A DNA stretch of 22,455 nt from a virus. The notes beneath the pieces were generated by a model. That model saw only the letters and a list, made by a program, of their open reading frames with translations, was not told the origin of the DNA and ran no database searches. Numbering within the stretch: the first letter of the stretch is position 1; each line of letters opens with the position of its first letter. Of the stretch, positions 925-21,854 are shown one piece after another. The stretch covers positions 1-22,455 of the IMG/VR virus record IMGVR_UViG_3300046001_006231, one strand, 5' to 3'. The translations under genes and the position numbers were made by a program.

Positions 925-2061
925 GTGAGCATATATATTCACATGCTTGATAAATGGAATATGTTAGTGCCCCGGGAATGGACAGGTCGACCTAGTCAAT
1001 TAGACAATCGATGGTCCCAGGACTACTATGTACAGTGGTTAAAAAAATTTCCCGATACTTGGTATTTGGCCCTCTGGCAAAGATGGCCATCTTTGCCAGG
1101 GCTGGGCAAGTTAGATCTTCCATTAGGGTGTGATGGTTATATAGTAAGCTTCCACTTAGAGGCAGTGGATATCGAGTGGGTTAATCAACAAGCAAAACGA
1201 GTGCAAGCGCCGATTATTGTTTTGTCGGATTCGGAATATTACAACTGGCCTCATGCCAGTAATGTGTATCCTTTTACATACATATTCTGGCACTCACAGA
1301 TTAAAAAAATGTTAGAATGGTTTCCAAACCCTGGGTGGGATACCAAACGACAATATTTAACCAGTGCCTTTTGTAATCGTATTACACAAAGCAAGCTGCT
1401 GGTGTTTACTGCATTGGCAGAGTATATTGGAACAGATCAGTGCTTGCTCAAACTCAGCAACTGGGTAGAGGAGAAAAATGTTCACTATCGAGAGCCAACA
1501 GGTAACGAATTGTTAGACACTCTGGCCAATATATTTTGGGACAAATACGCAGGCCACCCCCGGGATATTGGGGACAGCTACACTGAAGACAAGAATTATC
1601 AACAGTACACAGCTGACCCATGGGGTGCAGCATATCAACAAGCTGCTATACACTTTACTAATGAAAGCCTGCACTACAGTTATATGGACAATGATCAAGG
1701 CAGATTCATTCGTCCCGGGCCGTTCATTACTGAAAAAACTCTCAAATGTCTAGTTGGCGGAACTGCATTTGTGCCTGTTGGACAATATGACACCTACGGT
1801 AGACTCTCACGTTTGGGGTTTCGATTTGATTATAAATTTGATACCAGTTGGGACTCAGATTCCGGTAACATCACGCGGTTAGCTAGCATTGTAAATTTGA
1901 TAAAACAGTTTTCTCAGTACAGTATCCAGGATCTTGTTGATGCTACTCAAGAATCTAGTCGTTACAACCAAGACTATATCATGTCCGGAGAGTTTGCCCG
2001 CCGGGCACAAGCTGAAAATATTGATATAGTTAGTACGATTTACCGACTTTTCATAAAATAG
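925..2061 (+). CDS. Glycosyltransferase-like protein with C-terminal TEKT segment
   Basis: The protein has 378 residues from a GTG at 925; an in-frame ATG at 943 (MLDKWNMLVP) is an equally good start, and neither has a clear ribosome site. The N-terminal half contains SDSEYYNWPH (about 101-110), and TKRQYLTSAFCNRITQSKLL (about 140-159) recalls the "cln R-R" block of GT10-like phage proteins. The C-terminal block FITEKTLKCLVGGTAFVPVG (about 267-286) then LGFRFDY resembles the nucleotide-sugar-binding region of family 10 fucosyltransferase-like enzymes (usual pattern: TEK, a GxxPV stretch, then LGF). It probably transfers a sugar from a nucleotide donor, but donor and acceptor are unknown. No membrane segment is visible. 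Its codon use is more AT-rich than the preceding gene. Family placement is by motif memory only, so the function is tentative. Confidence 0.6.
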   Translation: MSIYIHMLDKWNMLVPREWTGRPSQLDNRWSQDYYVQWLKKFPDTWYLALWQRWPSLPGLGKLDLPLGCDGYIVSFHLEAVDIEWVNQQAKRVQAPIIVLSDSEYYNWPHASNVYPFTYIFWHSQIKKMLEWFPNPGWDTKRQYLTSAFCNRITQSKLLVFTALAEYIGTDQCLLKLSNWVEEKNVHYREPTGNELLDTLANIFWDKYAGHPRDIGDSYTEDKNYQQYTADPWGAAYQQAAIHFTNESLHYSYMDNDQGRFIRPGPFITEKTLKCLVGGTAFVPVGQYDTYGRLSRLGFRFDYKFDTSWDSDSGNITRLASIVNLIKQFSQYSIQDLVDATQESSRYNQDYIMSGEFARRAQAENIDIVSTIYRLFIK

Positions 2062-2100
2062 CATTTGGCTCAATTGTTGGGATTAATGCTAGCTTTTCTT
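2059..2100 (+). terminator. Possible Rho-independent terminator
   Basis: TAGCATT (2059-2065, starting at the stop codon) is the exact complement of AATGCTA (2085-2091). The stem is followed by GC and then TTTTCTT (2094-2100). The 7-bp stem has a long 19-base loop and only two G-C pairs, so it would be weak. Its position just after a gene and before the dsbA promoter fits a transcription boundary. Confidence 0.4.
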
Positions 2101-2110
2101 CCAGGAATAC

Positions 2111-2139
2111 TGTATAATACGCTATAACTTACCTAGGAG
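2111..2139 (+). promoter_or_regulatory. dsbA promoter -10 (TGTATAATAC) and ribosome site
   Basis: TATAAT lies at 2113-2118 inside TGTATAATAC, 27 bases before the dsbA ATG. A recognisable -35 hexamer is absent at the usual distance (TAGCTT at 2090-2095). It shares TGTATAATA with the folE and queD promoters. AGGAG at 2135-2139 is a strong ribosome binding site, 6 bases before the ATG. Confidence 0.5.
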
Positions 2140-2145
2140 ATTTAC

Positions 2146-2406
2146 ATGGACACTCGAGTATTTTCTGGCGAACAAAAAGCCAAACTGGTTCAAATCATCA
2201 ACGAAGGCATGCAGATCATGCATGATGTTGAAACCCTCAACGCTGGTCTTTCGGAAACGGTCAAGGCCATTGCTGAAGAGCTAGAAATCAAACCCAATGT
2301 ACTAAAGAAGGCCATCCGCTTGGCACACAAAGCGGAATTTGGCAAAGAGAAACAGGATCACGACCTGCTGGAAACTATTCTGGAAACTGTAGGCCGAACA
2401 CTTTAA
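2146..2406 (+). CDS. dsbA: DsbA-like dsDNA-binding late-transcription protein
   Basis: The 86-residue product has the size (T4 DsbA is about 89) and the characteristic core of this T4-superfamily family: NAGLSETVKAIAEELEIKPNVLKKAIRLAHKAEF (about 33-66) and a C-terminal ILETVGRTL. In T4, DsbA is a small double-stranded-DNA-binding protein that binds near late promoters and enhances gp55/gp33/gp45-dependent late transcription. The region looks like a helix-turn-helix type fold with no membrane or export signal. It has its own -10 element and a strong AGGAG site, so it is expressed independently of the gene before it. Its presence near genes for the polymerase and the clamp, which is itself the mobile activator of T4 late transcription, fits this role. 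Assignment is from the recognised sequence pattern and size. Confidence 0.75.
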   Translation: MDTRVFSGEQKAKLVQIINEGMQIMHDVETLNAGLSETVKAIAEELEIKPNVLKKAIRLAHKAEFGKEKQDHDLLETILETVGRTL

Positions 2407-2427
2407 GGACACTGTTTTTTACTGTGA

Positions 2428-2444
2428 TGATAAATACTTTATCA
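2428..2444 (+). promoter_or_regulatory. Late-promoter-like box inside a perfect hairpin
   Basis: TGATAAA (2428-2434) and TTTATCA (2438-2444) form a perfect 7-bp stem with a 3-base loop. The sequence contains GATAAATA (2429-2436), one mismatch from the T4 late promoter TATAAATA. It lies 17 bases before the HNH endonuclease start. Whether it works as a promoter, an RNA hairpin or both is not known. Confidence 0.4.
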
Positions 2445-2461
2445 ATAATAGTAAAAAAACA

Positions 2462-3043
2462 ATGAAAAAAAGATCAGCAACACATCGATACTTGTATAAA
2501 AAATGGCATGGTCCTATTCCAATAGACGAATTTGGTCGCACGTATGATATTCATCATAAAGATGGAAATCACGAAAACAATTTGCCAGAAAATTTAGTAG
2601 CCGTTCCTATACAAGAACATTACAACATACATTATCAAAATCAGGATTATAGTGCATGTGTATTAATTGCATGTAGAATGAAGATGTCATCAGATGAGAT
2701 TTCAAAATTAAATTCGTTGGCCGCATGTAAAAGAGTCAACGAAGGAACTCATCATTGGTTAACAGAAGAGCATAGTAACAATGTTAAAGAAAGTATCAAA
2801 AGAAGAGTTGCTGATGGCACCTTTCATATGCTCGGTGGCGAAATTCAAAAAGACTTCCAACTAAAAAGAAGTTATAATAAAGAACATCAGTGGAATGGGT
2901 CTCAACACAATTATGATAAAATAAAAAACGGAACCCATTCATCACAAAAAGAATGGATTTGTCCACATTGTAATACATCAGGAAAAGGTTCAACTAATGC
3001 AAAACGGTGGCATTTTGATAACTGTAAAAATAAACAAGGATAA
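2462..3043 (+). CDS. Free-standing HNH homing endonuclease
   Basis: The product (193 residues) has an HNH core at about residues 29-58: YDIHHKDGNHENN, then NLVAVPIQEHYNIHY, with paired His 31-32, Asp34, Asn40 and the late His53/His57. The C-terminus carries a CxxC...HxxxC zinc-knuckle-like pattern (C167, C170, H184, C188). This architecture matches phage-type HNH homing endonucleases, which nick or cut a DNA site and are copied into uninfected alleles by recombination. The gene sits directly before the DNA polymerase gene, a well-known homing target. It is clearly more AT-rich than dsbA and most of the polymerase gene, and uses AAA/AGA codons, as expected of a recent arrival. No Shine-Dalgarno sequence is visible before the ATG. 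I infer the target lies in the adjacent polymerase region. Confidence 0.85.
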   Translation: MKKRSATHRYLYKKWHGPIPIDEFGRTYDIHHKDGNHENNLPENLVAVPIQEHYNIHYQNQDYSACVLIACRMKMSSDEISKLNSLAACKRVNEGTHHWLTEEHSNNVKESIKRRVADGTFHMLGGEIQKDFQLKRSYNKEHQWNGSQHNYDKIKNGTHSSQKEWICPHCNTSGKGSTNAKRWHFDNCKNKQG

Positions 3044-3045
3044 GA

Positions 3046-5706
3046 ATGTCATATATTGATGCGTTATTCGATCGTGAGCATGATCGAATTCATGTAGTTG
3101 AGAGAGTAAAAGGTAACAGAGTATATAAAGAATTTCCTGCAGAATATCGATTTTATTACGACGACCCCAAGGGCAAGTTTCGCAACATCTACGACAAGCC
3201 AGTAAGCCGGTTCAGCTCTCGCAACAACAAAGAGTTCCGCAAAGAAATGCGGGTACACTCGGGTAAAAACATCTACGAAGGTGATATCAACCCGGTGTTT
3301 CGTTGCTTGGAAGACAACTACAAGGGGCAAGACGGCCCGCCACTGCACACAGCATTTTTCGACATTGAGGTCGATTTTGATCCAGTCAAGGGTTATAGTC
3401 GACCGGATGATCCGTTTAATCCTATCACAGCGATCTCGGTCTACCTGGACTGGATGGATCAATTGATCACACTGGTGGTCCCGCCCAAGCGCATGAGTGC
3501 CGAAACTGCACAAGAGATTGCAGCCGAGTTTCCCAACACATTTGTGTTTTGGGAGGAAGCTGAACTGCTGAAAACGTTTATGTCTTTGATTGAAGATGCC
3601 GACGTGCTTAGTGGTTGGAACAGTGAGGGATACGATATTCCATACACTGTCAATCGTGTAATCAAACTGTTGAGCAAGGACGATACCCGTAAGTTTTGCC
3701 TTTGGGAACAACTGCCCAAGCCAAGAATGTTCGAGCGCTTTGGTGCCGAGAACATGACATATGACTTGGTTGGCCGTGTTCACCTGGACTATATGCAACT
3801 GTACCGCAAGTACACCTATGAAGAGCGACACAGCTACAGCTTGGATGCTATCTTGGAATATGAGGGACTGGCAGGCAAGACCAAGTACGAGGGCACACTA
3901 GATCAGCTGTATAACCAGAACTGGAAAACTTTTATCGAGTACAACCGGCAGGACGTGGTTGGTCTTGCCAACATCGATAAGAAACTTAGATTCCTGGATC
4001 TAGCCAACACCCTGGCGCATGAAAACACTGTGTTGCTGCAAACCACAATGGGTGCAGTGGCAGTGACCGAGCAAGCAATTATCAATGAAGCCCATGAACG
4101 TGGGCTAGTAGTTCCTAACCGTAAAGAGAGACTTAATGACAGTGATACACAAGCGGCAGGTGCCTATGTTGCTACGCCCAAAAAAGGAATCCATGAATAC
4201 ATCGGTTCCATTGACATCAACTCGCTCTATCCCTCGGCTATTCGCGCCCTCAACATGGGCCCAGAAACCATTGTTGGACAGCTCAGAAGCACAGCAACCG
4301 ACAACTTAATCCAGGAACGCATGGCCCGGGGAGATAGTTTTGCAGCATCCTGGGACGGTTTGTTTGCCACACTAGAGTACACTGCTGTGATGGAGCAGCA
4401 GCGGGGCACTGAGATTACCATTGACTGGCAAGATGGCAACAGCTCTGTGCACTCGGCTGCCGAGGTATGGAAGGCTGTGTTTGACAGCAACCAACCTTGG
4501 ATCCTAAGCGCGAATGGCACTATCTTTACCTATGAGAAAGAAGGTGTAATCCCAGGCCTGCTCAAGCGTTGGTATGCAGAACGTAAACAAATGCAGGCCA
4601 AGCTGAGGGAATGCACAGACAAGACAGAAGAAGAATACTGGGACAAGCGACAGTTGGTCAAGAAGATTAACTTGAACAGCCTGTATGGTGCTATTTTGAA
4701 TCCTGGTTGTAGATTCTTTGACAAGCGTATTGGGCAAAGTACTACACTGACTGGACGTAGTATTGCCAAGCACATGGATGCTCATGTAAATGAATGTGTG
4801 ACCGGCAAGTACGATCATGCCGGCGCCGCTATCATTTACGGTGATACAGACAGTTGTTACTTTTCTGCTTGGCCCATGCTCAAGGATGATGTGGAAGCAG
4901 GGCGCATGGAATGGGACAAGGATATCTGCGTGGCACTGTATGATAGCATCGCCGAACAGGTCAACCAAAGCTTTCCGGGATTCATGGAGCAAGCATTCCA
5001 TTGTCCCAGAGAAATGGGCAGTGTTATCAAGGGCGGTCGAGAGATTGTTGCCAGCAAGGGCTTGTTCATTACCAAGAAGCGGTACGCTGTGCTTTACTAT
5101 GACAAGGAAGGCAAGCGTCTTGACGTCAACGGCTATCCAGGTAAGGTCAAGGCCATGGGCCTGGATCTCAAGAGGTCAGACACTCCCAAGGTAGTACAGG
5201 AATTCCTTAGTGAGATCCTGGAGAATGTGCTAACTGGTCATAGTCGTGCAGACGTGATTGAGAAGATTCGAGCATTCAAATATGTGTTCATGGAAAGGCC
5301 CGCGTGGGAAAAAGGAACACCCAAGCGTGTAAACAACTTGACCAAGTATGGCGAGGCAGAGCTAAAGGAAGGCAGAGCCAACATGCCCGGACATGTGCGT
5401 GCTGCACTTAACTGGAATACTATGCGACGCATGAATAGTGATAATTACAGCATGCAAATTATTGACGGCATGAAAACAATTGTTTGCAAGCTAAAATCCA
5501 ACGCCCTGGGTTGGACTTCAATCGGTTATCCCACAGACGAAATGCACTTGCCACAGTGGTTCCGGGACTTGCCATTTGATGATGGCTTGATGGAAACTAC
5601 AATTATCGACAGCAAGGTATCCAACTTGTTGGGTGTACTGAACTGGGACATTAGTCAGGCCACTAACACAGAGAATACATTTCAATCACTATTTGAGTTC
5701 ACATGA
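3046..5706 (+). CDS. 43: Family B DNA polymerase (T4 gp43 type)
   Basis: The replicative polymerase has 886 residues; T4 gp43 has 898. The 3'-5' exonuclease motifs are complete: DIE (D106, E108), WNSEGYDIPY (N192, D197) and YNRQD (D303). The polymerase motifs are also complete: A, SIDINSLYPS (D390); B, KKINLNSLYG (K540, N544, Y547); C, YGDTDS (D600, D602); and KKRY at 677-680. The C-terminus, FQSLFEFT, looks like a clamp-binding peptide. It is therefore expected to be an active, proofreading enzyme working with the clamp encoded downstream. The start ATG is 2 bases after the HNH stop, with AGGA just upstream. The first 37 codons are AT-rich like the HNH gene, and base use changes sharply near position 3157. 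The stop overlaps the next start as ATGA. Confidence 0.97.
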   Translation: MSYIDALFDREHDRIHVVERVKGNRVYKEFPAEYRFYYDDPKGKFRNIYDKPVSRFSSRNNKEFRKEMRVHSGKNIYEGDINPVFRCLEDNYKGQDGPPLHTAFFDIEVDFDPVKGYSRPDDPFNPITAISVYLDWMDQLITLVVPPKRMSAETAQEIAAEFPNTFVFWEEAELLKTFMSLIEDADVLSGWNSEGYDIPYTVNRVIKLLSKDDTRKFCLWEQLPKPRMFERFGAENMTYDLVGRVHLDYMQLYRKYTYEERHSYSLDAILEYEGLAGKTKYEGTLDQLYNQNWKTFIEYNRQDVVGLANIDKKLRFLDLANTLAHENTVLLQTTMGAVAVTEQAIINEAHERGLVVPNRKERLNDSDTQAAGAYVATPKKGIHEYIGSIDINSLYPSAIRALNMGPETIVGQLRSTATDNLIQERMARGDSFAASWDGLFATLEYTAVMEQQRGTEITIDWQDGNSSVHSAAEVWKAVFDSNQPWILSANGTIFTYEKEGVIPGLLKRWYAERKQMQAKLRECTDKTEEEYWDKRQLVKKINLNSLYGAILNPGCRFFDKRIGQSTTLTGRSIAKHMDAHVNECVTGKYDHAGAAIIYGDTDSCYFSAWPMLKDDVEAGRMEWDKDICVALYDSIAEQVNQSFPGFMEQAFHCPREMGSVIKGGREIVASKGLFITKKRYAVLYYDKEGKRLDVNGYPGKVKAMGLDLKRSDTPKVVQEFLSEILENVLTGHSRADVIEKIRAFKYVFMERPAWEKGTPKRVNNLTKYGEAELKEGRANMPGHVRAALNWNTMRRMNSDNYSMQIIDGMKTIVCKLKSNALGWTSIGYPTDEMHLPQWFRDLPFDDGLMETTIIDSKVSNLLGVLNWDISQATNTENTFQSLFEFT

Positions 5707-7432: not shown

Positions 7433-8950
7433 ATGATTGAACAAGACGACCTAACTGCCAAGCAAAGCGACTACGCTATTTTTCTGCCAGCTATCTCCAG
7501 TTTTTATGGCAGCTATATTGGAAAACAACGTGCTGGCCCGTATGTAGAGCAGACTCGCATGCCTGCGGGAATTCCTGACATGGAACAACTAAACTGGTTG
7601 AATCCACAAAAGGCACTGTTCCCGTACCGCTGGAGTCTTTACAGTGCAGGTCACGCCAATCTTGACATGACCAAGCCCAGTGCCAAGGAAGACATGGTAC
7701 GAGACCGAGACCCCAACAGCTTCATGCTGTTGGACTCAGGCGGGTTCCAGATTGCCAAGGGCGTGTGGCCGGGACAATGGGCCGACCCTGCGGACTTGAA
7801 CGCAGAGAAGAAACGCAGGCAAGTGCTAGAGTGGCAATGTCAAATTGCTGACTATGCAATGACCATGGATATTCCCACCTGGACATACTTGGACAAGGAA
7901 GCATCTGTGCTGTGCGGGATCCACAGTTATGATGATGCAGTCAACGCTTCTAAGTACAACAACGAGTACTGGATGGCAAATCGTTATGGCAAAACCAAGA
8001 TTCTAAACGTGTTGCAGGGTAGCAATCACAGCGAAGCTGATCATTGGTATGACATGATGAAGGGCTATTCTGATCCCGGCCTGCACCAAAATGCCTTTAA
8101 TGGTTGGGCCATGGGAGGGCAAAACATGTGTGATGCGCACCTGGTGCTTAAACGCTTGGTTCACTTGATACATGATGGATTGTTAGAAAAAGGACAACAT
8201 GACTGGATGCATTTCTTGGGAACATCGAAGTTGGAATGGGCAGTATTACTCACAGCCATTCAACGTTCAATTCGGTACTATCACAATCCCAACTTCACAA
8301 TTAGTTTCGACTGTGCGTCACCCTTCTTGGCCACAGCCAACGGGCAATTATACCATAACATCACCACGGAGAGCAGGGGCAAATGGTCTTACAACATGAG
8401 TCCTACAGTAGACGACAAAAAGTACTCCACTGATTCCCGTATGTTTGGTGATGCAGTGCGGCAGGATGGGATCCATCCTAAATTCGAAGACAGTCCCATC
8501 ACCAGTAGATTAAAAATTAGCGATGTTTGCTGTTACCAACCCGGTGACCTAAATAAGATTGGTAAGGAAGGTCGCACATCGTGGGATAGTTTCAGCTACG
8601 CCTTGCTCATGGGGCATAATGTTTGGATGCATTTGGAATCAGTACAACGGGCAAATCGAATGTGCGATTCGGGTGTTTACCCAGATATGATGGTGCATCC
8701 AATTTCTGAAGCATTCAATGTTACTAACCTAATTGATAGAATATTTTCTGCCCGTGATCGCCAAAAGAGCTTGGAAATTATCAACGGACATGCTAAAGTA
8801 TGGGAACGGGTGGTAGGAACTCGTGGGTACACAGGAAAACGAGCAGTCAACGCTCATACTCAGTATAACAATTTATTCAGCGTAGTCGAGGAAGAAGCTA
8901 CAGATGAACTTGATCAATCTCGACTTGATCAACTTGAGGACAGTGTATAA
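7433..8950 (+). CDS. dpdA: DpdA-family DNA guanine transglycosylase (TGT-like)
   Basis: The product has 505 residues; bacterial tRNA TGT has about 375. Key TGT features appear in order: LLDSGGFQ (D101), MTMDIPTW (D146), LNVLQGS (Q195-G196), NGWAMGGQ (224-230), HFLGTSKL, and FDCASPF (D293), matching Zymomonas TGT Asp102, Asp156, Gln203, the Gly230 loop and nucleophile Asp280. The usual CxCxxC zinc site of tRNA TGT is not apparent. Phage DpdA proteins replace guanine in DNA with a preQ0-derived 7-deazaguanine, which protects against restriction; the long C-terminal extension (about 310-505) fits DpdA better than a tRNA enzyme. The window also encodes FolE and QueD, which feed this pathway. It directly follows the clamp gene and its stop overlaps the next ATG by one base. 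A role on tRNA is the main alternative. Confidence 0.8.
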   Translation: MIEQDDLTAKQSDYAIFLPAISSFYGSYIGKQRAGPYVEQTRMPAGIPDMEQLNWLNPQKALFPYRWSLYSAGHANLDMTKPSAKEDMVRDRDPNSFMLLDSGGFQIAKGVWPGQWADPADLNAEKKRRQVLEWQCQIADYAMTMDIPTWTYLDKEASVLCGIHSYDDAVNASKYNNEYWMANRYGKTKILNVLQGSNHSEADHWYDMMKGYSDPGLHQNAFNGWAMGGQNMCDAHLVLKRLVHLIHDGLLEKGQHDWMHFLGTSKLEWAVLLTAIQRSIRYYHNPNFTISFDCASPFLATANGQLYHNITTESRGKWSYNMSPTVDDKKYSTDSRMFGDAVRQDGIHPKFEDSPITSRLKISDVCCYQPGDLNKIGKEGRTSWDSFSYALLMGHNVWMHLESVQRANRMCDSGVYPDMMVHPISEAFNVTNLIDRIFSARDRQKSLEIINGHAKVWERVVGTRGYTGKRAVNAHTQYNNLFSVVEEEATDELDQSRLDQLEDSV

Positions 8951-13136: not shown

Positions 13137-13832
13137 ATGACCCAACTAGATCGCAATCTATCCCAAGTAATCCGTGACCGTATCAATGCAGCCGGAGCCC
13201 GCTTTCACAGCAATGACAATATTGCCGAATTTGTCCAAGAAGGTGAGCTCGAAGGCCTTGTCGATGAAGTTGCTGCAAAAATGCAAGGCGTACTTGACTC
13301 CTTGGTGATTGATACCGAAAACGACCACAACACACACGACACTGCGCGCCGCGTGGCCAAGATGTTCGTGAAGGAAACGTTTAGCGGTCGCTATCGCCCA
13401 GTGCCCAAGATCACTGCTTTCCCTAACATGGGCTATAAGAGCCTGTACACTACAGGGCCTATTTCTATTCGTAGCACCTGTGCACATCACTTTCAAAACA
13501 TTGTGGGTAGCTGCTGGGTTGGGATTGTTCCCGATACCGAAGTGATTGGGTTGAGCAAGTTCAACCGTTTGGTGCACCATATTTGTGAGCGCCCTCAAAT
13601 TCAAGAGGAGATGACCACGCAAATTGCCGACGCACTGAAACAATATGCCAAGACTGATAATATTGCTATTGTGGTCAAAGCAGAACATTTCTGTATGACA
13701 CAGCGTGGAGTGCGGGAACACTCTAGTGATATGACCACAGCAATCATGATGGGTGCATTTGAGAAGGATCCTGCATTGAAGAAAGAATTTTACGACATCT
13801 GTTTGAGCATGAAAGGCCACAGCGGTAACTAA
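13137..13832 (+). CDS. folE: GTP cyclohydrolase I (FolE)
   Basis: The 231-residue protein has the full family signature: STCAHHFQNIVGSCWVGIVP (113-132), GLSKFNRLVHHICERPQIQEEMT, and VVKAEHFCMTQRGVREHSSDMTTAIMMGAF (179-208). Zinc ligands correspond to C115, H118 and C186 (E. coli Cys110, His113, Cys181). It converts GTP to 7,8-dihydroneopterin triphosphate, the first step of both folate and 7-deazaguanine (preQ0) synthesis. With queD nearby and dpdA upstream, preQ0 production for DNA modification is the likely role. I chose ATG 13137 because the frame upstream runs through the promoter; no Shine-Dalgarno sequence is visible before it. The N-terminal 50 residues are less conserved. The promoter is a perfect sigma70 consensus. 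Confidence 0.95.
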   Translation: MTQLDRNLSQVIRDRINAAGARFHSNDNIAEFVQEGELEGLVDEVAAKMQGVLDSLVIDTENDHNTHDTARRVAKMFVKETFSGRYRPVPKITAFPNMGYKSLYTTGPISIRSTCAHHFQNIVGSCWVGIVPDTEVIGLSKFNRLVHHICERPQIQEEMTTQIADALKQYAKTDNIAIVVKAEHFCMTQRGVREHSSDMTTAIMMGAFEKDPALKKEFYDICLSMKGHSGN

Positions 13833-15778: not shown

Positions 15779-16261
15779 ATGGCAAAAAAGTATTTTAGTA
15801 CAAAAACGTACAAGCAAATTGGTCCAGTCGCATACCGGCAATGGAGAGCAGATAGCCACTGCAATCTAATTCACGGATACGCAATGAGCTTCCATTTTGA
15901 ATTTGAAGCAGACACACTAGATGCTCGTAATTGGGTTACAGATTTTGGTGGGCTAAAGCCCTTAAAGGCCGAACTTGAAAACTGGTTTGATCATACCTTG
16001 TTGGTTGCACAGGACGATCCCATGCGCGAGCACTTGCTGGAGCTTGGCAGACTTAAACTGGCAAAGATTACGGAAGTGGAAAAGACCGGATGTGAGGGCC
16101 TTGCTGACTTTTTATATGAGTATGTCAACACCATCTTCCTACCAAACTGCGGTAGCGCAGAGGCTGCACGAGTCTGGTGCTGCAAAGTTGAGGTTCGTGA
16201 AACTGACAGCAACATGGCCGGTCGGCAAGGGCATCGAGAAGACAACGAGTTTGTTAATTAA
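15779..16261 (+). CDS. queD: 6-carboxytetrahydropterin synthase (QueD/PTPS family)
   Basis: The product has 160 residues from ATG 15779, chosen because AGGAG lies 8 bases upstream; an in-frame ATG at 15725 would begin inside the -35 element. Family features are ADSHCNLIHGYAMSFHFEFE (about 24-43), with zinc-binding histidines in SHC, HGY and FHF and a cysteine after the first His; then WVTDFGGLKPLKAELENWFDHTLL (52-75), the GL-x-LK and FDHT-L blocks; and CCKVEVRETDSNMA, with the pterin-binding Glu. This matches the short QueD form common in phages and proteobacteria. It converts dihydroneopterin triphosphate to 6-carboxytetrahydropterin, step two toward preQ0. Its promoter core is identical to that of folE. 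QueE and QueC, needed to reach preQ0, are not in the window and may come from the phage elsewhere or the host. Confidence 0.9.
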   Translation: MAKKYFSTKTYKQIGPVAYRQWRADSHCNLIHGYAMSFHFEFEADTLDARNWVTDFGGLKPLKAELENWFDHTLLVAQDDPMREHLLELGRLKLAKITEVEKTGCEGLADFLYEYVNTIFLPNCGSAEAARVWCCKVEVRETDSNMAGRQGHREDNEFVN

Positions 16262-18774: not shown

Positions 18775-20093
18775 AACAAATATTAGAAGACATTAAAAAA
18801 TATATTGATAATAAACAAGCAGACAAAACCTGGGTAGCCGGTAAAGACTTTGTAAACTATGCAGGGCCTCATTTTGACTCTTCGGAGTATGTGGCAGCAG
18901 CAGAAGTACTGCTCGACGGCTGGCTTGTTATGGGTAACAAAAGTCTAGAGTTTGAGCGCAAATTTCCAAAAGAGTTTGGGAAGACTCGCGGAGTATTAAC
19001 CAACTCCGGGAGCAGCGCCAACCTGCTCATGATGACAGCAATGAAGTCCAAGCGCGGATACAACTTCCCGGCAGGAACCAAGGTGCTGATGCCTATTGCA
19101 GGATTCCCTACAACGTTGAATCCGACCATTCAAAACAATTTCACACCTGTGTTTTGTGACATTGAAATTGATACTCTGAACATTGACTTGGATCAAGCAG
19201 AACAGATTCTTGCAACTGATACAGATATCAAAATTATCACGTTTGCTCATGTGCTAGGCAACCCCCCCAACATGGATCGTGTTATGGACCTGGTCCGCAA
19301 GCACTCGCTTGTACTGCTAGAGGACTGCTGTGATGGCTTAGGCACAACATACGACGGTCAACCCTTGGGCAGTTTTGGCGAGATGGCAAGTTGTAGTTTT
19401 TATCCGGCACATCACATGACCATGGGCGAAGGTGGCTTTGTAGCCATGAACGACGCCCAGCAAGAAGTCATTGTTCGTTCCTTACGTGAATGGGGTCGTG
19501 GATGCTACTGTGTTGGCCCCGATGCCAACAAGTTAAAATGTGGTACTTGTAACAAACGTTTCAACGAGTGGATTCCTGAAATGCCCGGAGAAATATTTGA
19601 TCACAAGTATGTGTATGACGAGATTGGTTACAATCTAAAACCCATTGAACTACAAGCGGCCATGGGTCTTGAACAAATCAAGAAACTGCCCGAGATACAT
19701 GCTTTACGTCAACGCAATTACAATCTGTTGTTTGCCATTTACGAAAAGTACGAAGAGTTTTTCCACTTGCCACGTGCTAGAGAACATGCAGATGTAAGTT
19801 GGTTTGCGTTTCCTCTTACCATTAGAGCAGGTGCGCCGTTTACACGCATGGACATTGTGGATTATCTTGAAGAAAATCTAATTCAAACCCGTCCCTACTT
19901 TGCCGGCAACATCATGTTACAGCCTGCCTACAGCCACTTGATGAATCCTGCAGACGCACGTGACAACTATCCTGTGGCCACACTCACAATGAAAAACACA
20001 TTCTTCCACGGTTGTAGTCCTGTTATTACACCGGAACAGATTGAGTACATTGGTGAGCAGGTAGATGGGTTTATGAGTTTATTTGGAGTTTAA
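18771..20093 (+). CDS. rfbH: RfbH/E1-type sugar 3-dehydrase (PLP, 2Fe-2S)
   Basis: The product has 440 residues (known E1/DdhC enzymes have about 437) and begins in an ATGA overlap. It has the DegT fold but with His in place of the Schiff-base lysine: SFYPAHHMTMGEGG (H214-H215), the hallmark of CDP-4-keto-6-deoxyglucose 3-dehydrase. Cysteines C187, C245, C247 and C257/C260 recreate the C-x57-C-x-C spacing of the E1 2Fe-2S cluster, and the E1-specific block KRFNEW...FDHKYVYDEIGYNLKPIE follows. E1 removes the C3 hydroxyl of a 4-keto-6-deoxy sugar to give the 3,6-dideoxy product and needs a reductase partner (E3), which I do not see. It is followed by an acetolactate-synthase-like enzyme. Presence in a phage replication genome is unusual. 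Confidence 0.9.
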   Translation: MKQILEDIKKYIDNKQADKTWVAGKDFVNYAGPHFDSSEYVAAAEVLLDGWLVMGNKSLEFERKFPKEFGKTRGVLTNSGSSANLLMMTAMKSKRGYNFPAGTKVLMPIAGFPTTLNPTIQNNFTPVFCDIEIDTLNIDLDQAEQILATDTDIKIITFAHVLGNPPNMDRVMDLVRKHSLVLLEDCCDGLGTTYDGQPLGSFGEMASCSFYPAHHMTMGEGGFVAMNDAQQEVIVRSLREWGRGCYCVGPDANKLKCGTCNKRFNEWIPEMPGEIFDHKYVYDEIGYNLKPIELQAAMGLEQIKKLPEIHALRQRNYNLLFAIYEKYEEFFHLPRAREHADVSWFAFPLTIRAGAPFTRMDIVDYLEENLIQTRPYFAGNIMLQPAYSHLMNPADARDNYPVATLTMKNTFFHGCSPVITPEQIEYIGEQVDGFMSLFGV

Positions 20094-20094
20094 T

Positions 20095-21105
20095 ATGAGA
20101 GTATGCGATTGGATAGCAGATTATCTTTATAATTTAGGCATTAAAAATGTCCATGGGCTCATGGGTGGAGGCGCTAGCGGATTAAATGATGGGTTTATTA
20201 AGAATGGTAAAATAAACTATATCTGTTATCATAACGAACAAGGTGCTGGGCACAGTGCAGTTGGAGAAGCAAAATTTACTGGCCAATTAGCGGTTGTGAA
20301 TCCCACCACTGGATGTGCTGGCACTAATTGCACTACTAGTGTATTGGATGCCTGGCAAGATAGTGTTCCTGTTTTATTTTTAAGTGGCAATGTAAAGCTC
20401 AATACCTGTAGTGGGTGGATTAATCAAACTCAGGGGATTAATTTGCGCAAATATGGTGTTCAAGAGCATCATATTGTTGATACAGTAAAATCAATTACTA
20501 AAATGTCGTACTTTATAACTTCTCCAGATGAAGTTGCCAAAGTTATTCAAGAAGCAATGTATGTTGCTACTACAGGGCGGCCCGGTCCTGTATGGATTGA
20601 TATTCCAGGTAATATTCAGACTTCGCCTATGCCCGCTGAGTTTGAAACATTTAATATACCAGAACAAACACAGTCACAGGTTGATATAAAATCAGTAATT
20701 GATGCATTAGAGCAGAGTCAGCGTCCATTGGTTGTTGCAGGGGATGGCATACGACAATCACGCACAGTGAATTATTTTGTTAGATTTGTTGAAAAGTATC
20801 AACTTCCGTTTGTTACTACCTATGGTGGGCGAGATATAACTTCCAATGATTATTCTCTGAATGTTGGTCCTATTGGTGTTCGTGGTAGCCGAGCAGGAAA
20901 TTTTGCTTTACAAAATGCCGACTTGTTATTGATACTTGGTACCAGTCTTAGTAGCGGTGTCGTGGGCTATGACCCAGCACAGTTTAGTCCATTTAGTTAT
21001 AAAATTGTTGTTGATTGCGATTCTAATGAGTTAGAAAAAAATATTATACACATGGATCAAAAACATCAACTTGACTTGCAAGATTTTTTTGGAGCGATGC
21101 TATGA
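20095..21105 (+). CDS. TPP enzyme N-terminal half (acetolactate synthase/YerE-like)
   Basis: I chose ATG 20095 because GGAG lies 6 bases upstream; an in-frame TTG at 20083 is inside the rfbH gene. The product has 336 residues with the PYR domain (MRVCDWIADYLYNLGIKNVHGLMG; catalytic Glu48 in CYHNEQGAGHSAVGEA; NPTTGCAGTN) and the central domain (ITSPDEVAKVIQEAMYVATT, GRPGPVWIDIPGNIQ, RPLVVAGDGIRQS, LLLILGTSLSS). This matches the first two domains of acetolactate synthase-type enzymes. The PP domain is in the next gene. In yersiniose synthesis the homologous YerE adds an acetyl unit from pyruvate to a 4-keto-3,6-dideoxy sugar, and here the gene follows rfbH. The ORF ends in DFFGAML; the stop forms an ATGA overlap with the C-terminal half. 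Confidence 0.85.
   Translation: MRVCDWIADYLYNLGIKNVHGLMGGGASGLNDGFIKNGKINYICYHNEQGAGHSAVGEAKFTGQLAVVNPTTGCAGTNCTTSVLDAWQDSVPVLFLSGNVKLNTCSGWINQTQGINLRKYGVQEHHIVDTVKSITKMSYFITSPDEVAKVIQEAMYVATTGRPGPVWIDIPGNIQTSPMPAEFETFNIPEQTQSQVDIKSVIDALEQSQRPLVVAGDGIRQSRTVNYFVRFVEKYQLPFVTTYGGRDITSNDYSLNVGPIGVRGSRAGNFALQNADLLLILGTSLSSGVVGYDPAQFSPFSYKIVVDCDSNELEKNIIHMDQKHQLDLQDFFGAML
21084..21090 (+). promoter_or_regulatory. Possible -1 frameshift site T_TTT_TTT
   Basis: Seven T residues, preceded by GA, lie in the codon phase required for -1 slippage (T 21084, TTT 21085-21087, TTT 21088-21090). The zero-frame stop is 13 bases on (TGA 21103-21105). After a -1 slip reading continues TGG AGC GAT GCT ATG into the downstream ORF with no stop. 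Whether a stimulatory RNA follows was not determined. Confidence 0.45.
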
Positions 21106-21854
21106 CAAGAACACAATGGATTAAAAGTTGTCAACGTTGGAAAGCAAAATGGCCGATTATACAACAAGAATATCTTCCGCAACCAGAAGATCAGGCACTT
21201 AATATCTATGCTGTGTTGCATGCTATTAATCAACATAGCACAGCCAATGATATTCTCATGGGCGATGGCGGCAGTATAGGATACGCAGGCCCTACAGCAA
21301 TGAATGCCAAGCAAGGACAAAGAATAATTTTAAATCTTGCGCAAGGTGAAATGGGATGGGCATTGCCGGCATCTATAGGTGTATCAATGTCTAGTAATCA
21401 ACCAGTTATTGCAACCATGGGCGATGGTAGTTTTATGTTAAACATGCAAGAACTTGCCACAGTAAAACAACATAATCTAAACATCAAATATGTTGTTATG
21501 AATAACCGGGGTTACCTAAGCATTAAAAATACACAGAACAAATACTTTGGCGGTCGTGTGTATGGCACAAGTTCTGAAACTGGACTTTGGTTTCCTGATT
21601 TTGCCAATGTTGCTCAGGCATTTAAAATTGGGTATGCAAAAGTTTCCACTAAAAAAGATCTTGACAATATAAAAGTATTGTTATCGACTCTGGGCCCAAT
21701 GATTATTGACTGCACTTGTTTATCTGAGCAAGAAATTATGCCTGGACAAGCTCTTAAAAATGGGCATCAAGCAGCATTACATGATATGTATCCGTTTCTA
21801 AGTGACAAAGAGATGCAAGAAGAAATTATTAACAAAAAATTGTTAGACCTATGA
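21102..21854 (+). CDS. TPP enzyme C-terminal half (PP domain)
   Basis: The product has 250 residues and overlaps the N-terminal half by ATGA. It carries the PP domain: DILMGDGGSIGYAG (50-63), LAQGEMGWALPASIGVSM, and the TPP motif MGDGSFMLNMQEL (106-118) through KYVVMNNRGYLSI (129-141), with N134-N135 about 25 residues after GDG. The beginning (TRTQWIKSCQRWKAKWP) is the linker that in intact enzymes follows the central domain. Together with the preceding ORF this makes about 585 residues, the length of a normal acetolactate-synthase-type catalytic subunit. Because the ORFs are in adjacent frames they could be two subunits, a product of -1 frameshifting at 21084-21090, or a single-base assembly error in the T7 run. 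Confidence 0.85.
   Translation: MTRTQWIKSCQRWKAKWPIIQQEYLPQPEDQALNIYAVLHAINQHSTANDILMGDGGSIGYAGPTAMNAKQGQRIILNLAQGEMGWALPASIGVSMSSNQPVIATMGDGSFMLNMQELATVKQHNLNIKYVVMNNRGYLSIKNTQNKYFGGRVYGTSSETGLWFPDFANVAQAFKIGYAKVSTKKDLDNIKVLLSTLGPMIIDCTCLSEQEIMPGQALKNGHQAALHDMYPFLSDKEMQEEIINKKLLDL

Follow-up and report, generated by a model that had tools for sequence, protein, structure and literature searches.

According to PMC2988022, free-standing endonucleases of T4 co-convert neighbouring DNA when they home, which accounts for marker exclusion, and the cut sites of the SegF/SegG/MobE type lie hundreds to thousands of bases from the gene; on our reading of it, most of what is known about homing of this kind comes from T4-type crosses. 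Here we analyse 22,455 nucleotides of virus DNA (positions 1 to 22,455 of IMG/VR record IMGVR_UViG_3300046001_006231; the whole stretch is called the window below). It holds a free-standing HNH endonuclease gene related to I-TevIII, directly before a family B DNA polymerase gene (phrog_262, positions 3046-5706), and homing of this gene has very probably carried DNA into the start of the polymerase gene.

The regulation and location of comparable genes have also been described. PMC2988022 also reports that in T4 the genes for I-TevI, II and III have middle or late promoters nearby, with RNA structures covering the ribosome site, that RNA structures block early translation of I-TevI, II and III, SegB and Aeh1 MobE, and that the late promoter of I-TevI is repressed by I-TevI itself at an operator resembling the homing site. 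It associates seg43(25) of Aeromonas phage 25 with gene 43, and PMC10448857 places 29% of IPA-HNH genes near DNA polymerase genes. For plant mitochondria, PMC3192709 describes a cox1 homing intron beside which lies a short divergent co-conversion tract, the genes being native elsewhere, and a single putative loss of the intron in which the tract was retained. Our search of the literature on phage homing endonucleases, outside which most subscription papers lay, found no description of the present element or of polymerase alleles carrying only the exchanged patch. A preprint (PMC13405050) reportedly deals with homing endonucleases and their degradation.

An AT-rich island across two genes

The first-pass annotation of this DNA had described an AT-rich island from about 2411 to about 3157, and this is confirmed. 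The guanine plus cytosine content (GC) is 0.322 over 2411-3156 against 0.440 in the window, and the lowest value in any non-overlapping 746-base stretch elsewhere in the window is 0.353. It had also suggested following GC and codon use along the sequence; likelihood change points in GC fall at 2402 (twice the log-likelihood difference 14.9) and at 3159, inside the polymerase gene (11.5), in agreement with the borders given earlier. Third-position GC is 0.16 in polymerase codons 1-37 and 0.23 in the HNH gene, against 0.55 in the remaining polymerase. Polymerase bases 1-111 have a GC of 0.324, and 0 of 813 windows of 111 bases in the remaining polymerase are equally AT-rich.

The junctions recur in two IMG/VR contigs, L082 (8,040 bases, 99.94%) and L083 (4,155 bases, 99.76%), from samples that may be non-independent. 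All loci named here are IMG/VR contigs, L082 being the label for this phage's copy. We considered whether an AT-rich start is normal for this polymerase gene and rejected this, the GC of the first 111 bases minus that of the body being -0.015 +/- 0.031 over 179 loci. The three lowest values belong to L084 (-0.163) and L082 (-0.161), which have the HNH gene, and L187 (-0.143), which does not.

Carriers and gene-less relatives

Relatives were collected by polymerase searches (the best 80 of 591, 600 and 599 confirmed matches), and 338 loci were reduced to 180 distinct polymerase 5′ ends, 179 of them long enough for pair tests. Comparison with relatives lacking the HNH gene, as proposed in the earlier annotation, supports it: the nearest ones, L001 and L182, do not have the AT-rich start. 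Both are 0.95 identical to this phage in the polymerase body (bases 112-1011), against 0.63 and 0.69 respectively in the first 111 bases. Between the left neighbour gene and the polymerase there are two other open reading frames (ORFs) in L001 and one in L182. Because these occupy the spacer, the comparison is one of alleles and not with a clean empty site.

Searching with the HNH protein revealed close copies (84% protein identity) in two further lineages, L084 and L085, again directly before the polymerase gene. The body of L084 is 0.93 and 0.91 identical to those of gene-less L263 and L262, against 0.69 and 0.68 in the first 111 bases, and L085 is 0.89 identical to gene-less L191 in the body against 0.58 in the first 111 bases. 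Comparison of the carriers with each other gives identities of 0.74-0.84 for the first 111 bases, against 0.62-0.70 for the bodies, which were compared in three 300-base segments. The HNH gene itself is 81% (L084) and 79% (L085) identical in DNA to that of this phage.

Shared sequence begins immediately ahead of the HNH start codon in L085, and some 50 bases upstream of that codon in L084 and this phage. By the alignments, the leader at 2409-2461 is part of the DNA that moved with the HNH gene in the latter two lineages, and the left neighbour gene, as far as can be told, is outside it. The native spacer with its ribosome site has been replaced in L084 and L085, and all three carriers have AAGGA in the tail of the HNH gene, ahead of the polymerase ATG. 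These comparisons show that the HNH gene and the 5′ tract of the polymerase moved together in three lineages and have a history unlike that of the body, with edges placed to about 10-20 bases. The junction given in the first-pass annotation, 3157, falls inside the exchange interval of 3150-3161.

Trees of the polymerase body and the 5′ tract

Trees were made for 30 loci, comprising 15 chosen for contrast and 15 random rows without the EYRF motif described below, the latter including L020. The groups tested were named after earlier results, so the p values are not blind. In the body tree, each carrier groups with its gene-less relatives at 100/100, and a single clade of carriers is rejected (approximately unbiased test, p 0.0002). 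In the tract tree (bases 1-108), the three carriers are joined at 99/99, and the groupings of this phage with L001 (p 0.003) and of L084 with L263 and L262 (p 4e-5) are rejected. The body and tract trees thus conflict in the way that co-transfer predicts.

Gene-less recombinants and the edges of exchange

Within the tract, the patch at bases 76-108 changes the encoded residues from ANYIF/ANYVF to AEYRF. Scanning for DNA that encodes EYRFYYDDP yielded 31 stretches, and the patch-only loci described here come from this motif-directed scan. The EYRF marker is present in 24 of the 180 distinct 5′ ends, namely the 3 carriers, 5 patch loci and 16 others. No EYRF was found among the 155 loci labelled from the polymerase searches, where duplicates are filed under other identifiers; the contigs of L167 (as L299), L168 (as L232) and the carriers L084 (as L261) and L085 were found in those searches too.

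Five gene-less loci have a foreign patch in an otherwise native polymerase, as judged against close relatives without the motif: L187 (compared with L263 and L262), L182 (L001), L167 (L300 and others), L189 (L200 and L024) and L175 (L014 and L200). Edges were defined by the sites that separate native from donor-like sequence, numbered in polymerase bases. L084 is donor-like to 105 and native from 126, and L085 is donor-like to 105 and native from 120. L187 is native at 4-19, donor-like at 27-124 and native from 159. L182 is native to 82, donor-like at 84-104 and native at 111; its sites 147-177 are common with this phage, as expected within one clade. L167 is native to 84, donor-like at 89-105 and native from 108 or 111, beyond which donor-like sites are scattered. 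L189 and L175 are both native to 72 and donor-like at 75-108, and then native from 114 or 120 in L189 (with two later donor-like sites when compared with L084) and from 120 in L175. The right edges of the recombinants therefore lie within bases 105-125 (125-158 for L187), and the left edges are variable. The later right edge of L187 may be one that it has in common with L084, because sites 106-125 of L084 are uninformative with the donors used.

The eight recombinants fall into five clades when grouped by body identity: this phage with L182, L084 with L187, L085, L167, and L189 with L175 (0.86). They are not eight independent events. Patch DNA is common to different lineages: the 33-base patches of L189 and L085 are 0.97 identical, and their bodies 0.66-0.67. 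As a control, pairs with bodies at least 0.88 identical and the same EYRF marker state were compared, and 0 of 224 had a patch identity of 0.61 or lower; in pairs agreeing in the marker, 103 of 73,024 windows of 33 bases were at or below this value. The 20 pairs that differ in the marker (bodies again at least 0.88) have patch identities of 0.42-0.70.

The best patch identity of motif-less loci to any carrier has a median of 0.61 and a maximum of 0.79. Two of the 16 other EYRF loci are borderline: the patch of L186 is 0.82 identical to that of this phage and the patch of L165 0.79, but their nearest motif-less relatives are only 0.77 and 0.70 identical in the body. The EYRF protein motif alone was rejected as a footprint, since 16 gene-less loci carry the residues at near-background patch identity.

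The HNH protein

The HNH protein matches Pfam HNH_3 (PF13392; E 7e-10, 38.7 bits against a curated cut-off of 24.8), and its best PHROG is 'intron-like DNA endonuclease'. In 20 aligned homologues, H31, H32, N39, N40, N44 and H53 are invariant, as are C167 and C170, and H184 and C188 are present in at least 90% of the rows. We read this C-terminal Cys/His motif as a putative zinc finger. The protein is matched by 88 records in the phage collection, all below 60% identity and some annotated as I-TevIII or intron-like DNA endonuclease; 86 of them cover at least 80% of the query, indicating near full-length homology. Bacterial and archaeal contigs gave 10 weak matches of 35-55 residues each. Between gene copies dN is 0.08-0.11 and dS 1.4-2.1, which indicates purifying selection.

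The predicted fold has a predicted local distance difference test score (pLDDT) of 84 and a predicted template modelling score (pTM) of 0.57. Comparison of the model by Foldseek and Z score gave nothing convincing: the matches are weak, with I-HmuI at Foldseek rank 1 (E 2.8) and VIA at rank 9 (Z 3.7 over 58 residues). A sequence search of solved structures gave no match up to E 1. An intron around the gene was considered and rejected, with 0 Rfam matches at 2000-3400 and the gene lying between two intact ORFs. In 13 related loci the only Rfam matches were 4 tRNAs, all in L360.

Presence of the gene is sporadic. Within 400 bases upstream of the 180 distinct polymerase 5′ ends, a close copy is present in 3 cases and a 41% relative in 1. 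The relative is an HNH gene in L020 (1358-2029), at the same place before the polymerase. The tract tree places L020 as the sister of the carriers (97/92).

The leader and possible regulation

A hairpin including the start codon of the HNH gene is predicted as likely by RNA folding in this phage, and also in the L084 leader (z -5.8, 0 of 200 shuffles as stable). Twelve other leaders were folded: L340 has a hairpin with z -6.8, and the rest, including L085 and L020, have none beyond z -1.4.

The leader also contains a box resembling TATAAATA, which we take to be the late-promoter consensus and used to score it. The exact TATAAATA has 0 matches in the window, with 1.08 expected. Near the start of the homologues with enough upstream sequence, TATAAATA or GATAAATA (T/G-ATAAATA) is found in 29 of 74, against 2.6 expected from a mononucleotide shuffle, which is a weak null, and some of the 74 loci are near-duplicates. 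In many I-TevIII-like genes (L086, L088, L091, L358, L376, L393 and others), the 75 bases or so before the HNH start hold a leader with T/G-ATAAATA in most, then a hairpin GTAGTTCGCGG..CCCAACTAC, then TCTAAC. This could be a common late leader.

A possible operator in the leader was suggested by its likeness to the polymerase gene of gene-less relatives. The leader of this phage matches L001 at 14 of 18 bases (1 of 200 shuffles), although shuffles of the leader compared with the whole gene reach at least 14 in 6 of 20. The L084 leader matches bases 102-119 of L263 at 16 of 18 (0 of 200 shuffles) and of L262 at 15 of 18 (2 of 200). When a 15-base element of the leader was compared with the first 1,000 bases or so of 156 motif-less polymerases, the best match was at base 106 in 149 for the L084 element and in 142 for that of this phage, counts that come from homologous genes and are hence non-independent. 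By analogy, the hairpin, the late-promoter-like box and the weaker operator-like match resemble the regulation of T4 homing endonucleases.

Other features of the window

The features of the locus are collected in Table 1. The left neighbour gene is one that we take to resemble T4 DsbA. The spacer between it and the polymerase holds varied small genes in many related loci, with two ORFs in L001 and a 366-residue ORF in L164, and others in L169, L174 and L187; it looks like an insertion hot spot. The best solved-structure match of the polymerase, 1clq (presumably the RB69-type chain), starts at residue 33, and most of the exchanged stretch is unplaceable on the structure.

Table 1. Features at the HNH gene and polymerase start, in window coordinates.
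Feature	Position	Strand	Details
Left neighbour gene	2146..2406	+	86 amino acids; phrog_12534 / phrog_639; 95% DNA and 100% protein identity to L001
Leader	2409..2461	+	Common to L084 (blastn alignment starts 2409); absent in L085
Predicted RNA hairpin including HNH start codon	2410..2464	+	-14.2 kcal/mol, z -4.9, 0/200 shuffles as stable
Possible operator	2413..2430	+	Resembles L001 polymerase bases 102-119, 14/18; weak
Late-promoter-like box GATAAATA	2429..2436	+	7/8 to consensus TATAAATA; also in L084 leader
Free-standing HNH homing endonuclease gene, I-TevIII-like	2462..3043	+	193 amino acids
Probable polymerase ribosome site AAGGA	3036..3040	+	Inside HNH gene tail; also in L084, L085
Donor-like polymerase 5′ end, bases 1-104	3046..3149	+	Presumed co-conversion tract
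Core, polymerase bases 89-104	3134..3149	+	Common to all eight recombinants
Right-hand exchange interval	3150..3161	+	Between last donor-like site (104) and first steady native site (117)
Native family B DNA polymerase body	3162..5706	+	0.95 identical to L001 over bases 112-1011

Elsewhere in the window, there are genes of the GTP cyclohydrolase I and 6-pyruvoyl-tetrahydropterin synthase families (13137-13832 and 15779-16261), and the ORF at 7433-8950 is by eye like tRNA-guanine transglycosylases, with no Pfam match. These three are perhaps a 7-deazaguanine pathway for DNA modification. A thiamine-pyrophosphate enzyme is split over two overlapping ORFs, 20083-21105 (N-terminal and central domains) and 21102-21854 (C-terminal domain).

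Interpretation

Homing with co-conversion by the I-TevIII-like HNH gene is in our judgement a highly probable explanation of the island. It had been put forward in the first-pass annotation, and is supported by the gene-less contrasts in three lineages and the conflicting trees. Co-conversion is seen here as exchanged tracts, not as observed conversion events. We propose that, in a mixed infection, the HNH enzyme would cut the polymerase gene of a gene-less phage at or beside bases 89-110 (codons 30-37). Repair would then copy leftward from the carrier genome, taking in approximately the first 105 polymerase bases, the ribosome site and the endonuclease gene, and in two of the three lineages the leader. 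The converted core would no longer be cuttable, its recognition or cut sequence being lost, and gene-less phages with only the patch would come from repair that ended before the gene or from later loss of the gene. The cut site is likely to be at or beside the core of bases 89-104, or just to the right of it, because all eight recombinants have this core in common. A cut near the junction had also been suggested earlier: the presumed position fits the five gene-less partials, which have bases 89-104 in common with the carriers.

We put forward, more tentatively and as somewhat short of an even chance, a joint reading of the patch and the leader. The patch of bases 76-108, a fragment of the carrier's polymerase gene, would be an immunity allele that blocks cutting and spreads alone beyond the carriers. 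The endonuclease, bound at the FYYDD-coding DNA, would shield the right break end and also, by way of an operator copy of that sequence, act as repressor at its own late promoter. An enzyme that stays bound there would give the nearly fixed right edge.

Several observations weigh against the homing explanation. Some concern L085: its tract is not AT-rich (GC 0.40 against 0.41 in the following 300 bases), it has neither the leader nor a start-codon hairpin, and its grouping with L191 in the tract tree is not rejected at 0.05 (p 0.071). AT-richness belongs to two of the three gene copies, not to the mechanism. The operator match fails against L182 (12 of 18, 57 of 200 shuffles). L020 has a 41% HNH relative in front of a polymerase without the EYRF marker; this gene may cut elsewhere, and is possibly an older or differently targeted relative. 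The 16 gene-less EYRF loci without carrier-like DNA have patch identities to L084 of 0.58-0.73. The target region was considered as a site of unusual DNA conservation, and this was rejected, as it is only at the 65th percentile of entropy. There are also native-looking single sites inside the tracts, with sites of opposite type at 15, 24, 27, 30, 40 and 91 in this phage, several at 22-69 in L085, 54 and 72 in L084, 21 and 91 in L175, and 60 in L182; single sites of this kind would arise if the true donors are unsampled. Finally, L187 has an AT-rich start without the gene. The first-pass annotation had held that gene-less relatives with the same AT-rich start would refute homing, and L187 is in form such a relative, whereas L001, L182, L263 and L262 are not. 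L187 reads as a partial or left-over conversion tract, because its sisters L263 and L262 are without the tract, and its upstream DNA and first 19 bases or so are native.

The exchanges might be ordinary homologous recombination without an endonuclease cut, with the right edge set by the best local homology at the FYYDD-coding stretch. The right edges do fall in or beside this stretch, which is conserved (bases 106-120 belong to the less variable ones); exchange between diverged phages would be easiest there, and the cut at the polymerase start is one that we infer. We nevertheless regard this as unlikely: one short region has been exchanged in five clades, and no marker-agreeing pair among the 224 shows such a patch, while the left edges are not bound to one homologous stretch and the adjoining gene is of homing-endonuclease type and under selection. 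The chance is smaller again that the patch is a selected protein variant (for example, one escaping an inhibitor that binds the polymerase N-terminus) with the HNH gene as a passenger. Patch-only alleles with the change to AEYRF, in four gene-less clades, are what such selection would leave. However, the carriers' exchanged tract extends to and includes the HNH gene in all three lineages, and 16 other loci have EYRF in unlike DNA, so that the residues exist without the haplotype.

The direction of exchange is unreadable from any one pair, and L187 is gene-less with an AT-rich start, so that the AT-rich start might be ancestral here and gene-less L001 and L182 the recombinants. This is very improbable, given that L001 keeps its neighbours L231 and L006 in both trees while this phage shifts to the carriers, and that low GC separates the tract from the rest of its own gene. 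As a virus record of 22 kb from a metagenome, the window might be an assembly chimera of two phages. Such a chimera is scarcely credible, since both junctions are present in two other contigs and the same arrangement is found in L084 and L085. Homing with co-conversion is the explanation that we prefer.

Comparison with known systems

Homing can thus be read from uncultured phages, and eight natural recombinants put the likely cut within about 20 bases. Patch alleles in phages without the gene suggest that immunity of the target site may spread independently of the element, and a selfish gene can, it appears, rewrite the start of an essential replication gene.

The HNH protein is homologous to I-TevIII, which T-even phages encode in their nrdB intron: records annotated as I-TevIII or intron-like DNA endonuclease align over 95% of the length at about 32% identity. 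The leaders of this phage and L084 appear similar in design to those of T4 I-TevI, II and III, with a predicted hairpin and a promoter-like box. Unlike I-TevIII, the gene is free-standing between intact genes, with no nrdB intron, and its presumptive target is the polymerase start. It resembles SegF, SegG and MobE, which carry out intronless homing, in lying beside its probable target gene with neighbouring sequence apparently co-converted, but here the probable cut site and the end of the HNH gene are separated by about 90-115 bases. Like seg43(25) and the IPA-HNH genes, it is an endonuclease gene near a phage DNA polymerase gene; in contrast to them, the polymerase is unsplit here, and both the exchanged tract and the patch-only alleles can be mapped at base resolution. 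In the form of the tract it resembles cox1, where a short divergent tract also lies beside the element in an otherwise native gene and was kept in one putative loss of the intron. That element is a group I intron of plant mitochondria, whereas the present one is a phage gene that stands free, and four clades have patch-only alleles.

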